Notes under the pieces: generated by a model | Seen by the model: only the letters and a program-made list of their open reading frames with translations | Told to the model about the DNA's origin: nothing | The model's database searches: none | Position numbers and translations under genes: made by a program | Part shown: positions 3,090 to 7,423 of the stretch, piece by piece | Numbering within the stretch: the first letter of the stretch is position 1 | Layout: each line of letters starts with the position of its first letter | DNA from: Bacteroidales bacterium | Lineage (GTDB): Bacteria > Bacteroidota > Bacteroidia > Bacteroidales > VadinHA17 | Direction: 5' to 3' | DNA: 10,588 nucleotides | NCBI GenBank assembly: GCA_025455505.1 | Contig: JALOMK010000034.1 | Coordinates: 1-10,588, forward strand

Positions 3090-4574
3090 ATGAACTCAAG
3101 GCGCGCTTTCATCAAAAAGGCCGGCATGGCATCGGCAGGGATAACAATCATCCCTCGTAACGCTCTTGGCGGACCCGGGTTTACAAGCCCGTCCGACAAG
3201 CTAAACATCGCCGGCATTGGCATAGGCGGCAAGGGACATGTTAACCTGAAGGCTATGTCGACAGAGAACATCGTGGCTCTCTGCGACGTCGACTGGAAAT
3301 ACGCTTCATCCTGCTTCAATGAGTTCCCTGGCGCCAAAAAATATTACGACTGGAGACAGATGTACGACGAGATGGGCAAATCATTCGATGCCGTCATGGT
3401 CTCTACTGCCGACCATACCCATGCCCTGATCGCCGCCCATGCCCTCACCATGGGGAAACATGTCTACTGCCAGAAGCCTCTCACTCACAGCGTGTATGAG
3501 TCGCGCCTTCTCACAAAACTTGCCGCGGAGTATAAAGTCGCCACACAGATGGGCAACCAGGGAAACTCGGGCGACGGCGTACGGCAGCTCTGCGAGTGGA
3601 TTTGGAACAACGAAATAGGAGAGATCCGCGAAGTCCACGCCTGGACCGACAGGCCAATATGGCCGCAGGGTATCGAAAGACCCGCGAAGGAAATGCCGGT
3701 GCCGAAAACAATGAAATGGGACCTTTTCATCGGTCCGGCACCGATGAGGCCATACCACGAGATCTACACCCCATGGAACTGGAGGGGCTGGTGGGATTTC
3801 GGAACAGGAGCCTTCGGCGACATGGCCTGCCATGTGCTCGACCCTGTCTTCAGGGCGCTGAAACTCGGCTACCCCGAAAAGGTGCGCGGCAGCTCAACAT
3901 TGATTAACACCGAGTCGGCGCCTCATGCCGAAACAGTGGAATTCTCATTTCCTGCAAGAGATAATATGCCGCGTTTTGCAATGCCCCCGGTTAAGGTGCG
4001 CTGGTACGACGGAGGATTACTTCCGAATCTCTCCGACATCCTTCCCGAAGGAGAAAACCTTATGAAAGACGGGCTTGGAGGATGCCTCTTCATCGGTTCA
4101 AAAGATATCCTGATGTGTGGCTGCGGCGGTTATTACCCCCGCCTGCTCTCGGGACGGGTACCGGATGTTAAGCCCTACCTCAGGAGGATCCCCGGAGGCG
4201 AGGTATTTTATCCCGACGGTCCTCATGAGCAGGACTGGATAAGAGCATGCAAGGAGAGTCCCGATAGCCGGACAGAAACTTCCTCGGCCTTTTCTTATGC
4301 CGGCCCTTTCAATGAGATGGTGCTTCTCGGCGTGCTTGCAGTAAGGCTTCAGTCGCTCAACAAAGCCCTGCACTGGGACGGACCGGGGATGCAGTTTACA
4401 AACATCGGGGCGTCGGATGACCTGAAGATAGTAACATCGGACAGGTTCAGCGTCACAGACGGACACCCGACATTCGACAGGCAGTTTGCCTCTTTCAATG
4501 CTTCACGGGCTGCGTCAGAATATATTAAGCACACTTACAGGGACGGCTGGTCACTTCCTCCTATGCCCAAATAA
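3090..4574 (+). CDS. Tat-exported Gfo/Idh/MocA family NAD(P)-dependent sugar oxidoreductase
   Basis: The protein has 494 residues. The N-terminus carries a twin-arginine signal (NSRRAFIKKAG, residues 2-12, then a short hydrophobic stretch), so it is probably folded with its cofactor before export, as for known periplasmic glucose-fructose oxidoreductase. The Rossmann domain follows: GIGIGGKG (42-49), CDVD (65-68), STADHTH (105-111). The catalytic-lysine motif, normally EKP, reads CQKPLTH (127-133), with Gln in place of Glu. The second domain holds GDMACHVLD (243-251), where D244 and H248 fit the usual catalytic Asp/His. The likely reaction is reversible oxidation of a sugar hydroxyl, plausibly C3, using a bound nicotinamide cofactor. 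It lies between the DUF1080 gene and the UroD-like gene in what looks like one operon. GH109-type glycosidase activity is less likely, but I cannot exclude it from sequence alone. Confidence 0.92.
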   Translation: MNSRRAFIKKAGMASAGITIIPRNALGGPGFTSPSDKLNIAGIGIGGKGHVNLKAMSTENIVALCDVDWKYASSCFNEFPGAKKYYDWRQMYDEMGKSFDAVMVSTADHTHALIAAHALTMGKHVYCQKPLTHSVYESRLLTKLAAEYKVATQMGNQGNSGDGVRQLCEWIWNNEIGEIREVHAWTDRPIWPQGIERPAKEMPVPKTMKWDLFIGPAPMRPYHEIYTPWNWRGWWDFGTGAFGDMACHVLDPVFRALKLGYPEKVRGSSTLINTESAPHAETVEFSFPARDNMPRFAMPPVKVRWYDGGLLPNLSDILPEGENLMKDGLGGCLFIGSKDILMCGCGGYYPRLLSGRVPDVKPYLRRIPGGEVFYPDGPHEQDWIRACKESPDSRTETSSAFSYAGPFNEMVLLGVLAVRLQSLNKALHWDGPGMQFTNIGASDDLKIVTSDRFSVTDGHPTFDRQFASFNASRAASEYIKHTYRDGWSLPPMPK

Positions 4575-4581
4575 TCATTAT

Positions 4582-5832
4582 ATGAGTACATCAAAGGAGA
4601 ATTTTCTTAAAACTCTGAATCACAGGCAGCCCGACAGGGTGGTGGTGGATTTTGGTTCAACGGGAGTAACGGGGATACATGTCCTGGTTGTAGATAAGCT
4701 GAGAGATCATTTTGGCCTGGAGCGCAAGCCTGTAAAGGTTACCGAACCCTACCAGATGCTGGGCGAAATCGAGCCCGACCTGCTCGATGCGATGGGAATA
4801 GATATTATCGGTCTCTACGGGGCCAAAAACATGTTCGGCATTCCGAACCGCGGGTGGAAGGTGCACAGGACCCTGTGGGGCCAGGAGGTGATGTTCCCGG
4901 AAGATTTCAATTATACTTTTACTGCAAACGGCGACATACTCATTTACCCTGAAGGAGATACGTCGGTGCCTCCCTGTGCCATGATGCCCAAAACGGGATA
5001 TTTCTTTGACGCGCTCGACAGGCAGAAGCCTGTTGACGATGCGGCACTGAAGGTAGAGGAAAACCTTGAAGAGTTCACCCCGGTTTCTGCGGAAGACCTC
5101 GACTACTGGAAGAATCTTTCGGCAACTGTCGGGGGTTCACAGCGCGGAGTTGTGGCCTCCCTCGGCGGTACAGCCCTTGGCGACATAGCCCTTGTTCCGG
5201 GCTTGAATCTTAAAGATCCGAAAGGCATCAGGGGCGTTGAGGAGTGGTACATATCTACCCTGATTCGAGAAGATTATGTGAGGGAGATCTATGACAGGCA
5301 GACTGACATTGCGATAGAGAACCTCAGGCGGCTTCACTCTGTGATCGGAAACAGGATAGATGTTGTCTTTACCTGCGGAACCGATTTCGGAACACAGAAT
5401 TCAACATTCTGCTCCGAGGAAACCTTTGACAGGCTCTGGCTGCCCTATTACCGCAAGGTTAACGACTGGATCCATTCAAATACAGGCTGGAAGACATTCA
5501 AACACTCGTGCGGTGCCGTGGAGCCGCTGCTGGGTCACTTCATTGATGCCGGTTTTGACATAATTAATCCGGTACAGATAAATGCGGCCGGCATGGAAAC
5601 CAGGAAGCTGAAAAAGAATTATGGTGACAAGCTTGTTTTCTGGGGCGGAGGTGTTGATACGCAGGGCGTGTTTGCCTTCGGCACTCCGGCAGAGGTACGG
5701 GAACAGGTGAAGAGACAGTGCGGCATCCTGAACGAAAACGGAGGCTTTGTCTTCAACACAGTTCATAACATCCAGGCCAATGTGCCTTTCGAAAATGTAG
5801 TTGCAATGCTCGAAACCCTCAGGGAACTATGA
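4582..5832 (+). CDS. Uroporphyrinogen decarboxylase / MtaA-like family protein
   Basis: I place the start at ATG 4582, 7 bp after the upstream stop. A longer in-frame opening to 4486 would overlap that gene by 89 bp and adds a non-homologous leader. The product has 416 residues and no signal peptide, so it is cytoplasmic. The opening ENFLKTLNHRQPDRVVVDFG (6-25) is typical of the UroD/MtaA superfamily, a TIM barrel that includes heme-pathway decarboxylases and corrinoid or coenzyme M methyltransferases. The C-terminal half has HSCG, with H308 and C310 matching the zinc-binding H-x-C of MtaA-type enzymes. In the segment where MtaA supplies a third cysteine, this protein has VHNIQANVP, with H395 a candidate ligand. 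It is not a housekeeping HemE: it is longer and sits in a sugar locus. Methyl transfer is one possible role, but no corrinoid protein is visible. The family call is strong; the function is unknown. Confidence 0.9.
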   Translation: MSTSKENFLKTLNHRQPDRVVVDFGSTGVTGIHVLVVDKLRDHFGLERKPVKVTEPYQMLGEIEPDLLDAMGIDIIGLYGAKNMFGIPNRGWKVHRTLWGQEVMFPEDFNYTFTANGDILIYPEGDTSVPPCAMMPKTGYFFDALDRQKPVDDAALKVEENLEEFTPVSAEDLDYWKNLSATVGGSQRGVVASLGGTALGDIALVPGLNLKDPKGIRGVEEWYISTLIREDYVREIYDRQTDIAIENLRRLHSVIGNRIDVVFTCGTDFGTQNSTFCSEETFDRLWLPYYRKVNDWIHSNTGWKTFKHSCGAVEPLLGHFIDAGFDIINPVQINAAGMETRKLKKNYGDKLVFWGGGVDTQGVFAFGTPAEVREQVKRQCGILNENGGFVFNTVHNIQANVPFENVVAMLETLREL

Positions 5833-5944
5833 TGCCCCTTGCCCCTTGCCCCACGCCTCATACCGCATACCTCACTGCTCGAGCCTCAAACCTCATACCG
5901 CATGCCTCATACCGCATACCCCGCGCCCCATGCACTGTGCAGTA
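5833..5944. repeat. Array of 16 degenerate heptanucleotide repeats
   Basis: The bases directly after the UroD-like stop codon can be divided without remainder into sixteen 7-mers: TGCCCCT twice, TGCCCCA, CGCCTCA, TACCGCA, TACCTCA, CTGCTCG, AGCCTCA, AACCTCA, TACCGCA, TGCCTCA, TACCGCA, TACCCCG, CGCCCCA, TGCACTG and TGCAGTA. The approximate consensus is T(G/A)CC(N)CA, with decay at the right end and in the seventh unit. Within it GCCTCATACCGCATAC occurs at 5855-5870 and 5904-5919, and CCTCATACCGCAT at 5891-5903. The array fills 112 of the 116 bp between the two genes, leaving only AATT before the transporter ATG. It resembles the heptamer short tandem repeats (STRR) known from filamentous cyanobacteria. 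There are no unique spacers, so it is not CRISPR. Confidence 0.85.
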
Positions 5945-5948
5945 AATT

Positions 5949-7340
5949 ATGACTGACAACAGATACAACTGGAATTACCTGATAGGGATCTCGCTGATCT
6001 CGGCGATGGGAGGGCTGCTTTTTGGTTACGACTGGGTTGTTATCGGCGGGGCGAAGCCCTTTTACGAGCCCTATTTTGGTATTTCCGGCAATCCTTTCAT
6101 GCAGGGCTGGGTGATGAGCTGCGCCCTGGCAGGCTGCCTGATCGGCGCCGTGATCTCGGGCTGGCTCAGCGACAGGTACGGAAGGAAAAAGCTTCTCCTG
6201 CTTGCGGCCGGACTCTTTGTTGCCGCTTCGCTGGGCACAGGGGCTGCCGCCACAATAAGTGCTTTTATATTATTCAGGATACTCGGAGGCATAGGCATAG
6301 GCCTCGCCTCGAACCTCTCGCCGATGTACATCGCCGAGATAACTCCTGCACAGGCCCGCGGCAGGTTCGTATCATTGAACCAGCTGACAATTGTGATTGG
6401 CATCCTGGCCGCCCAGCTTATCAACTGGCGAATAGCACGTCCGGTCCCCGACGGCGCGGGGATTGCCGAAATTGCAGCTTCGTGGAACGGCCAGTTTGGC
6501 TGGCGCTGGATGTTCTATGCCTGTGCCTTCCCGGCACTGCTGTTTTTCAGTCTCATGGGGCTTGTGCCCGAGAGCCCCAGGTGGCTGGCACGGAAAAAGG
6601 AAAACCACCCGAAGGTACTCAGGATACTTGAAAGGGCAGGAGGAAATGCCTATGCCAGGAACGAACTCGATGCGATCTCGGCGACGCTTTCCAATGAGAA
6701 GCATGCCCCGGGAGGATTCAGGATGCTGCGTGAACCGGCGGTTTTCAGCATCCTTGTAACAGGTATTGTACTGGCAGTGTTCCAGCAATGGTGCGGGATT
6801 AACGTCATCTTCAACTACGCGCAGGAGATTTTCGGTGGTGCAGGCTACGAAGTGTCGGACATCCTCTTCAACATAGTCATAACTGGAAGCGTGAACCTCG
6901 TTTTCACCTTTGTGGGGATGTTCACTGTTGACAGGCTTGGCCGTAAAGCGCTGATGCTTATCGGCGCAGGAGGCCTTGCCGGTATCTATGCACTCACCGG
7001 GGCAATGTATTATACAGGCATACAGGGTCTTCCGCTGCTCATCTGCGTTGTCGCAGCAATTGCCTGCTACGCAATGACACTCGCTCCCGTGACCTGGGTG
7101 ATACTCTCGGAGATCTTCCCCAACCGTGTCAGGGGACTTGCACTTAGCATTGCAACTTTCGCGCTGTGGGCAGCCTGTTTCATCCTGACATACACCTTCC
7201 CGCTTCTGAACAAAGTGCTTAGGGAATCGGGCACCTTCTGGCTCTACGGGGTAATTTGCGTACTTGGGTTTATATTTATTTACAGGCGTTTGCCTGAAAC
7301 AAAGGGAAAAACGCTTGAACAGATTGAACAGGGAATCTGA
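5949..7340 (+). CDS. MFS sugar porter (XylE/GLUT-type)
   Basis: This 463-residue integral membrane protein shows the twelve-helix pattern and signature motifs of the sugar porter family. They are GYDWVVIGG (26-34), SDRYGRK (74-80), YIAEITPAQARGR (127-139), PESPRWL (208-214), QQWCGINVIFNY (279-290), DRLGRK (328-333), SEIFPNRVRG (387-396) and PETKGKTLEQIE (449-460). It would import a monosaccharide or small glycoside across the inner membrane, probably with protons. The QQ-x-x-GIN element is the sugar-contact motif in XylE and GLUT proteins. The length is normal. The 116-bp spacer before it is almost entirely heptamer repeat, leaving little room for a dedicated promoter, so transcription probably comes from upstream. 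Within this locus it is the obvious uptake route for the products of the exported sugar-active proteins. The exact sugar cannot be read from sequence. Confidence 0.95.
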   Translation: MTDNRYNWNYLIGISLISAMGGLLFGYDWVVIGGAKPFYEPYFGISGNPFMQGWVMSCALAGCLIGAVISGWLSDRYGRKKLLLLAAGLFVAASLGTGAAATISAFILFRILGGIGIGLASNLSPMYIAEITPAQARGRFVSLNQLTIVIGILAAQLINWRIARPVPDGAGIAEIAASWNGQFGWRWMFYACAFPALLFFSLMGLVPESPRWLARKKENHPKVLRILERAGGNAYARNELDAISATLSNEKHAPGGFRMLREPAVFSILVTGIVLAVFQQWCGINVIFNYAQEIFGGAGYEVSDILFNIVITGSVNLVFTFVGMFTVDRLGRKALMLIGAGGLAGIYALTGAMYYTGIQGLPLLICVVAAIACYAMTLAPVTWVILSEIFPNRVRGLALSIATFALWAACFILTYTFPLLNKVLRESGTFWLYGVICVLGFIFIYRRLPETKGKTLEQIEQGI

Positions 7341-7342
7341 TC

Positions 7343-7378
7343 ATACGGAAAAAATAAACCAGGAAAAATTTTCCGTAT
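7343..7378. repeat. Perfect 10-bp inverted repeat after the transporter gene
   Basis: ATACGGAAAA (7343-7352) and TTTTCCGTAT (7369-7378) are exact reverse complements separated by 16 bp, beginning 2 bp after the transporter stop codon. The right arm also forms the second half of the first short palindrome, GGAAAAATTTTCC (7362-7374). The stem is AT-rich and is followed by an A-rich stretch, not a T-run, so a regulatory site fits better than an intrinsic terminator on the plus strand. Confidence 0.6.
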
Positions 7379-7404
7379 AAAAAATAAATCCGGAAATATT
7401 TTCC
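7349..7404. promoter_or_regulatory. Two palindrome-bearing direct repeats upstream of the GH2 gene, candidate operator pair
   Basis: Two 26-bp copies (7349-7374 and 7379-7404) share the order AAAAAATAAA, a short variable CC segment, GGAAA, TTTTCC. Their starts are 30 bp apart, about three helical turns. Each ends in a near-palindrome: GGAAAAATTTTCC at 7362-7374 and GGAAATATTTTCC at 7392-7404. Repeated palindromes on one DNA face just before a hydrolase gene (ATG at 7424) suggest binding of a dimeric regulator. No regulator gene is in the window. The binding role is inferred; the repeat itself is visible. Confidence 0.5.
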
Positions 7405-7423
7405 TCCTTAAAAACTTCTTATT

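Follow-up and report, generated by a model that had tools for sequence, protein, structure and literature searches.

The sequence analyzed (hereafter, the window) is a 10,588-nucleotide contig (C313) of a 2.52-Mb draft assembly that comprises 377 contigs and is 69% complete. Pfam domains in the neighbourhood identify a 3-keto-disaccharide hydrolase, a Gfo/Idh/MocA oxidoreductase, a uroporphyrinogen-decarboxylase-fold (URO-D-fold) protein, an MFS transporter and a GH2 glycosidase, a set of genes that, from domain content, looks like a sugar-use cluster. The nearest named loci found with the URO-D protein are from metagenome-assembled genomes labelled Bacteroidales or Bacteroidetes/Bacteroidota; the host is probably a member of the Bacteroidales, and not cyanobacterial. 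The features that concern us are the following:

4582..5832, + strand: upstream gene, URO-D-fold protein (Pfam PF01208, E 1.4e-13)
5833..5944, + strand: degenerate heptamer array of sixteen units with coding-strand consensus T(G/A)CCNCA (supported by exact division, column counts and lag-7 identity)
5931..5944, + strand: last two units of the array, TGCACTG and TGCAGTA, which fit poorly and contain the 11-bp palindrome TGCACTGTGCA (read from the sequence)
5949..7340, + strand: downstream gene, MFS sugar transporter (Pfam PF00083, E 8.2e-108)

The open-reading-frame (ORF) list starts the URO-D gene at a TTG at 4486; the ATG at 4582 is the likelier start, since alignments with most close relatives begin only at residues 29-36. 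An in-frame TAA (5943-5945) immediately precedes the ATG of the MFS transporter. The window also holds two other tandem repeats of about two copies each, at 1502-1577 (period 37) and 7349-7414 (period 30).

A heptamer array fills the spacer

Positions 5833-5944 divide into exactly sixteen 7-mers, the first base adjoining the TGA of the upstream gene (5830-5832) and the last lying 4 bp before the ATG at 5949. Scored against T-R-C-C-N-C-A, the columns contain T in 11, G or A in 15, C in 15, C in 14, C, T or G in 6, 6 and 4, C in 14, and A in 11 of the 16 units; the opposite strand reads TGNGG(T/C)A. Three units fit poorly: CTGCTCG (5875), TGCACTG (5931) and TGCAGTA (5938). Identity at lag 7 is 72/105, with harmonics at lags 14, 21 and 28, and the window's ten top-scoring 112-bp stretches at this lag all start within 5824-5836. 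Dinucleotide shuffles give a mean of 32.5 (sd 4.4, maximum 52), and 0 of 10,000 reach 72. Tandem Repeats Finder recovers the array in pieces only, because its units are degenerate. The base count of the 116-bp spacer (52 C, 17 G) establishes that the strand asymmetry is real.

Cyanobacterial STRRs are tandem heptanucleotide repeats between genes and are defined for cyanobacterial hosts. The initial annotation had read the spacer as sixteen heptamers close to T(G/A)CC(N)CA and had likened it to STRR tracts. Exact division and column counts agree with that reading, and the comparison with shuffled sequence that it proposed places the observed value far above the shuffled ones. We conclude that a 7-bp array of STRR type is real here, its seven-base tandem period being above chance, as in heptameric intergenic repeats.

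Sequence signals in the spacer

Neither a sigma-70-like site nor the motif TANNTTTG, a Bacteroidota promoter motif, was found in the spacer. A transporter promoter there was accordingly rejected, and the earlier remark that the array leaves no room for a normal one is supported. No terminator-like site was found in the spacer, and a hairpin or terminator was rejected, the tract having no inverted partner (best 14-mer, 4 mismatches) and RNA-fold z-scores of -0.14 and 0.55. Rfam returned no match anywhere in the window. A quadruplex was also rejected, since four G3+ tracts with loops of 1-7 are absent on both strands of 5781-5990. The searches for promoter, terminator, fold, Rfam family and quadruplex yield no evidence of sequence use in the spacer.

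The base composition raises an alternative, which we consider unlikely: that the array is a Rho-loading attenuator, in which untranslated, C-rich, G-poor and weakly structured RNA would cause partial termination and, as a result, less transporter than enzyme. The array RNA has the composition of a Rho-dependent terminator (C-rich, G-poor, untranslated, with little structure) and folds no better than shuffles; the array has the window's largest C-minus-G excess per 78 nt, the value of 29 being reached by 2 of 21,022 stretches on both strands, both starting in 5750-5950; and the source genome encodes the Rho RNA-binding domain (PF07497, 121 bits). Against this, the window's highest C/G ratio lies elsewhere (from 2207-2209 on). 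Moreover, the window's + strand has nine hits to a rule used in Rho prediction (YC dimers recurring every 11-13 nt), and all nine start outside the spacer. From composition, a polar effect of the C-rich mRNA on the transporter is possible.

Related arrays in the source genome, genus, family and phylum

Twelve places on 11 contigs of the source genome match two C-rich heptamer patterns; the same patterns read backwards match once for the first pattern and not at all for the second. The tract is therefore not isolated in the parent genome, which the initial annotation had suggested scanning for such arrays. Nine arrays passed the lag-7 threshold, namely eight of the 12 pattern places (the places on C59, C70, C109 and C183 being left out of array analyses) and one array of another word, and all nine sit between called genes. 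The genome thus carries multiple dispersed intergenic arrays, as expected of heptameric intergenic repeats, and at least one array of another heptamer, GAGTTGG-like. In 126 kb of source-genome contigs chosen by number, no noncoding array exceeded the threshold; an array at L124 8304-8368 was excluded, being covered by a predicted ORF.

A four-unit pattern extends this to relatives, the source genome being counted at each level: it hits 42 of the 58 genus genomes sampled, where the number of matches in a genome ranges from 0 to 131, as well as 64 of 117 in the family and 70 of 296 sampled from the phylum. The reversed control pattern also matches in some relatives' genomes, so the four-unit pattern detects C-rich heptamers generally and not one family. 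C-rich heptamer arrays are consequently not the rarity in Bacteroidota that the initial annotation took them for when it called them rarely annotated, and the tract is ordinary for its group. Among the matches listed, we found no literature on the heptamer unit family of this tract in Bacteroidales.

The same results bear on the idea that the array is an assembly artefact of a metagenome-assembled genome. The fragmentation and incompleteness of the draft (377 contigs, 69% complete) lend the idea some substance, but the pattern recurs in the arrays of many genomes, some of them 99-100% complete (e.g. G408, G246 and G302), in which matches lie deep within contigs of over a million bases, and the array here is internal to its contig, between two intact genes. 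An artefact is extremely improbable.

The period is constant and the word is variable

We scanned 1.40 Mb from 14 genomes of the genus, the source genome included, using stretches not picked around arrays (hereafter, the unselected set). The scan yielded 74 noncoding tandem tracts, with periods of 7 (35 tracts), 8 (19), 9 (7), 6 (6), 10 (3), 12 (2), 11 (1) and 4 (1), in a sample in which G012 and G023 had been chosen as array-rich genomes, G001 and G041 as array-poor ones, and contigs C26 and C1 of G026 were already known to hold matches. With G012, G023 and G026 removed, the classifiable tracts have periods of 7 (12), 6 (1) and 9 (1), i.e., period 7 in 12 of 14. A further 483 kb of loci retrieved for the URO-D or the MFS gene gave periods of 7 (11), 8 (4), 12 (2) and 9 (1) (n = 18; five duplicates removed). 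Period-8 arrays of similar style, the second commonest class, are seen for example at L126 11064-11118, L128 5622-5731 and L137 14856-14942.

The unit types seen include GGCACAG, AAACGAT, AAAGTAG, GAAGACC, GGTTGCT, AACCCTG and ACCGCAT. Units nevertheless resemble one another between genomes more often than expected: 24 of 400 pairs are at distance 0-1, vs. a permuted mean of 12.9 and maximum of 23 (200 permutations). In mosaic arrays, the order GGTTGCT-then-GCGGTNN occurs five times and the reverse never, in three of 62 genomes (G033, G056 and G044); L152 5068-5166 and L158 5949-6044 provide GGTTGCT-to-GCGGTAC examples. The period is the constant; the word is much less so, with a modest shared vocabulary.

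These results bear on two further alternatives. According to the first, the array is a regulatory or structural site for a protein (STRR-binding, cold-shock or S1-type) that recognises steps of seven bases and sets expression or chromosome structure. The recurrence of arrays genome-wide at a preferred period would fit such a protein, as would the ability of CspB to bind heptamer direct repeats with weak sequence specificity, reported in PMC4679880. However, unit sequence varies widely within the genus, which a sequence-specific binder would not tolerate, and period 8 is second commonest. The repeat-recognising protein offered in the initial annotation is thus disfavoured, since it is the period that is retained, and the word that varies, from locus to locus and from species to species, and we regard it as highly unlikely. 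According to the second, the array is a dispersed copied element, with arrays or seeds spreading from locus to locus within or between genomes and not arising afresh. The 12 places of one unit pattern in a single 2.5-Mb draft, the recurrence of units between genomes above chance, and the five-to-none mosaic order speak for copying. The excess of unit recurrence is modest, however, neither a terminal repeat nor a target duplication was apparent in an alignment of five loci, and arrays that run into a stop codon suggest local seeds; overall, copying seems improbable.

Placement and orientation at ORF edges

Gene calls in the scans followed a simple longest-ORF rule without a gene finder. In the unselected set, 14 of 23 co-directional arrays begin at most 10 nt after the upstream stop, and 4 of 23 end at most 10 nt before the next start. 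Several arrays elsewhere run into the stop codon of the adjoining gene. Depletion between divergent genes is not significant in the unselected set (4/33 vs. 154/674 spacers, p 0.20), nor is an excess between convergent genes (6/33, p 0.63); a convergent excess is significant only in the set from chosen contigs (14/36 vs. 50/279, p 0.007).

The G-rich strand shows a polarity with respect to ORFs. Of 92 arrays taken together, 70 have the 5' end of this strand closer to an ORF than the 3' end; the naive p of 5e-7 is indicative, because arrays that share a spacer, are orthologous or come from chosen contigs are non-independent. By set, the counts are 7/9 in the source genome, 18/26 in the unselected set (33 arrays; 6 without skew, 1 tie), 23/27 in the chosen-contig set (36 arrays; 9 without skew) and 22/30 in a unit-pattern set, which excludes 4 arrays lying at the ends of stretches, 2 located within ORFs, 4 duplicates among orthologues and 1 edge case. 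With orthologue sets, which include three copies all contrary to the rule, counted once, the polarity is 19/25 in the unit-pattern set and 67/87 overall. Period-8 arrays show no clear polarity (6 vs. 4, with 7 without skew), and a count in the URO-D/MFS loci (2 for, 1 against, 5 without skew, 3 at edges) is too small to be read. The tract itself touches both ORFs (4 bp on the 5' side of the G-rich strand, 0 on the 3' side); formally it is one of the two source-genome exceptions, and, touching both genes, it is uninformative on the rule.

Among co-directional arrays with the tract's unit pattern, the C-rich strand is the template in 16 of 18 (orthologues included) and the coding strand in 2 of 18; in a broader co-directional set with marked skew, it is the template in 11 of 18 and the coding strand in 7 of 18. 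The idea of arrays without strand bias, drawn from the latter count (11 vs. 7), is superseded by the polarity at ORF edges. The C-richness of the coding strand pointed out in the initial annotation is thus correct for this spacer and does not extend to a rule, the C-rich strand elsewhere being mostly the template. That arrays C-rich in the sense direction are the minority between co-directional genes would fit the Rho explanation: a Rho effect selected against would also explain why arrays are usually G-rich in mRNA after stop codons.

Inverted partners occur for 4 of 33 arrays in the unselected set and 7 of 36 in the chosen-contig set, as compared to 2.6% of 156 and 5.7% of 176 mismatched control pairings, an excess that is overstated because the observed search included the array interior and the control search did not.

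Turnover at orthologous spacers

With a cutoff of E <= 1e-150, the MFS protein has 42 matches, which are spread over 39 of 62 genus genomes; loci from 30 matches were listed. Among the 29 listed loci other than our own, the URO-D gene lies upstream in 24; the other five (L188, L192, L202, L203 and L204) lack an upstream URO-D gene or end before it. The tract's array was found in none of the 24 readable syntenic junctions among the listed loci. In 9 of the 24, the genes overlap, touch or sit within 4 bp of each other, and the remaining junctions measure 33-172 bp, mostly of different sequence and some about the length of the tract spacer. The comparison of this spacer in relatives, which the initial annotation had offered as a refutation test, has two sides: the array is absent from all 24, with nine junctions almost spacerless and some others having a spacer of about the same length, and the array is nonetheless real. 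The absence makes the tract lineage-specific and leaves its reality unaffected. It weighs against both a Rho-loading attenuator and a protein that reads seven-base steps.

Other sequences occupy some of these junctions. L190 and L200 have short arrays of other heptamers directly 3' of the stop, and L208 has a less regular GGCACAG-like tract. By eye, spacers of L189, L191, L198, L201 and L206 contain paired C5/G5 blocks (CCCCCTT...AAGGGGG-like), which look like another short dispersed element. Yet another repeat type, with words like ACCACGGAG and CTCCGTG, is seen in the spacers of L205, L210 and L213, and after the URO-D stop in L063.

Closer comparisons show how arrays change. In two aligned stretches from relatives 91.3% identical over 9.25 kb, the gaps inside heptamer arrays, all GAAGACC-like and thus of another unit than the tract's, are 7, 7 and 14 bp, with almost identical flanks. 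At an orthologous place just after a stop codon, G045 and G043 carry arrays of differing unit and length. Elsewhere, the unit number of one array is the same in three relatives, two of the copies being 93.5% and 85.8% identical to the reference one; hypervariability is thus not a property of all arrays. In L220 (approximately 1999-2060) and its orthologue in L226, a heptamer array has an inverted partner followed by a T run, in a terminator-like arrangement; by eye, the two relatives differ less in this array than in the flanking gene.

Origin of the tract

We propose, with a probability of about 0.62, that the tract is simple sequence born by slippage (or small tandem duplication) that separated two genes and has no sequence-specific job. 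The tract would have arisen in intergenic DNA by such slippage or duplication, for which seven bases is the preferred step, would then have been degraded by point mutation, and by its growth would have opened the 116-bp gap between the URO-D and MFS genes in this lineage; its stop-to-start position would reflect where such tracts arise and are tolerated. We infer that the tract grew by the process seen in other arrays, that the two genes abutted ancestrally, and that the tract is neutral or nearly so.

Such slippage or duplication in sevens accounts for the period, for indels of whole units, for the variety of words and for the turnover. Several observations point to it: arrays share a period more than a sequence; gaps within arrays of close relatives come in 7, 7 and 14 bp; the orthologous place in G045 and G043 differs in unit and length; syntenic junctions turn over (0/24 with the tract's array); and RNA structure is not beyond that of shuffles (z -0.14), with no Rfam family. 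Arrays that run into a stop codon are likewise expected under slippage, the local sequence being the seed. Of the three options offered in the initial annotation (an effect on mRNA ratio, a repeat-recognising protein, neutral slippage), neutral slippage is the best supported. On the other side, the unit-step indels come from GAAGACC-like arrays, no relative was found with the tract's array, and one array keeps its unit number at 93.5% and 85.8% identity; furthermore, PMC4692102 reports for the Xanthomonas heptamers that two species have most repeats between corresponding genes and that the surroundings are more stable, unlike the turnover seen here.

Plain slippage also does not predict the recurring units (24/400), the word order (5 vs. 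0) or the orientation at ORF edges (70/92). These would be accommodated by a further, unlikely proposal: that a directional process common to several phyla lays tandem copies of about seven bases from ORF edges, 5'-to-3' on the G-rich strand away from the gene, with a step that is fixed by an enzyme and a word that is not, and with the limited recurring words and their order stemming from a template or array-to-array copying and not from random local slippage. The tract would be one product of that process. The orientation rule, shared vocabulary and mosaic word order are the part worth further work.

Comparison with known systems

Two published accounts lie nearest to the present arrays, PMC4692102 (Rehm et al., 2015) and PMC4679880. 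The former deals with G-rich heptamers, whose unit is GGGAATC in Xanthomonas and GGGGA(T/C)T in Nostoc. Like the present arrays, these heptamers have seven-base, often degenerate units in many dispersed intergenic copies, near or overlapping stops, with the 5' end of the G-rich strand nearer the ORF and few copies between divergent genes; inverted pairs are a likeness to the Xanthomonas heptamers. There are also differences: one unit type studied per organism, whereas here there are many words within a genus; G-tracts capable of forming quadruplexes, whereas the tract spacer has no canonical quadruplex motif on either strand; and, in Xanthomonas, two species that have most of their repeats between corresponding genes, whereas the tract is absent at the syntenic junctions read.

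The TAACTGA direct repeats of Beggiatoaceae, Cyanobacteria and five Bacteroidetes (MacGregor, 2015; PMC4679880), for which a post-transcriptional role was proposed, are likewise intergenic heptamer arrays of patchy distribution, with other heptamers alongside in Bacteroidetes and with close relatives that have shorter, repeat-free spacers. The TAACTGA unit is fixed, however, and the tract's units are different and not TAACTGA; in Maribeggiatoa, moreover, the repeats lie mostly just upstream of start codons, whereas the genus arrays here lie more often against stops. TAACTGA-type heptamers also occur at L105 4602-4625, in a draft genome named Poribacteria, where they directly follow a distant URO-D-like gene. 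Cyanobacterial STRRs, of which a Calothrix case is mentioned in PMC4692102, resemble the tract in having tandem seven-base intergenic units and differ in phylum and unit.

As cited in PMC4679880 and PMC4692102, Mrazek et al. (2007) found seven-base units to be the most abundant class of long repeats in most genomes examined and proposed slippage tied to the length contacted by polymerase. Unlike those long simple sequence repeats, the tract is degenerate, and surveys of regular repeats may overlook it. According to PMC12699852, which does not speak of heptanucleotides by name, 3-bp units are the commonest across prokaryotes, some of the repeats of 6-9 bp are strongly enriched in prokaryotic phyla, and short tandem repeats are dense in Bacteroidota. 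Through comparison of orthologous spacers, the seven-base preference of bacterial repeats becomes testable; the present locus suggests that repeat growth alone may alter operon spacing.

We conclude that the tract belongs to a known kind, intergenic heptamer repeats, in a degenerate form and in a genus with many coexisting words. Within one genus of Bacteroidota, many words go together with a single preferred period and with the orientation rule that the literature gives for Xanthomonas and Nostoc heptamers.
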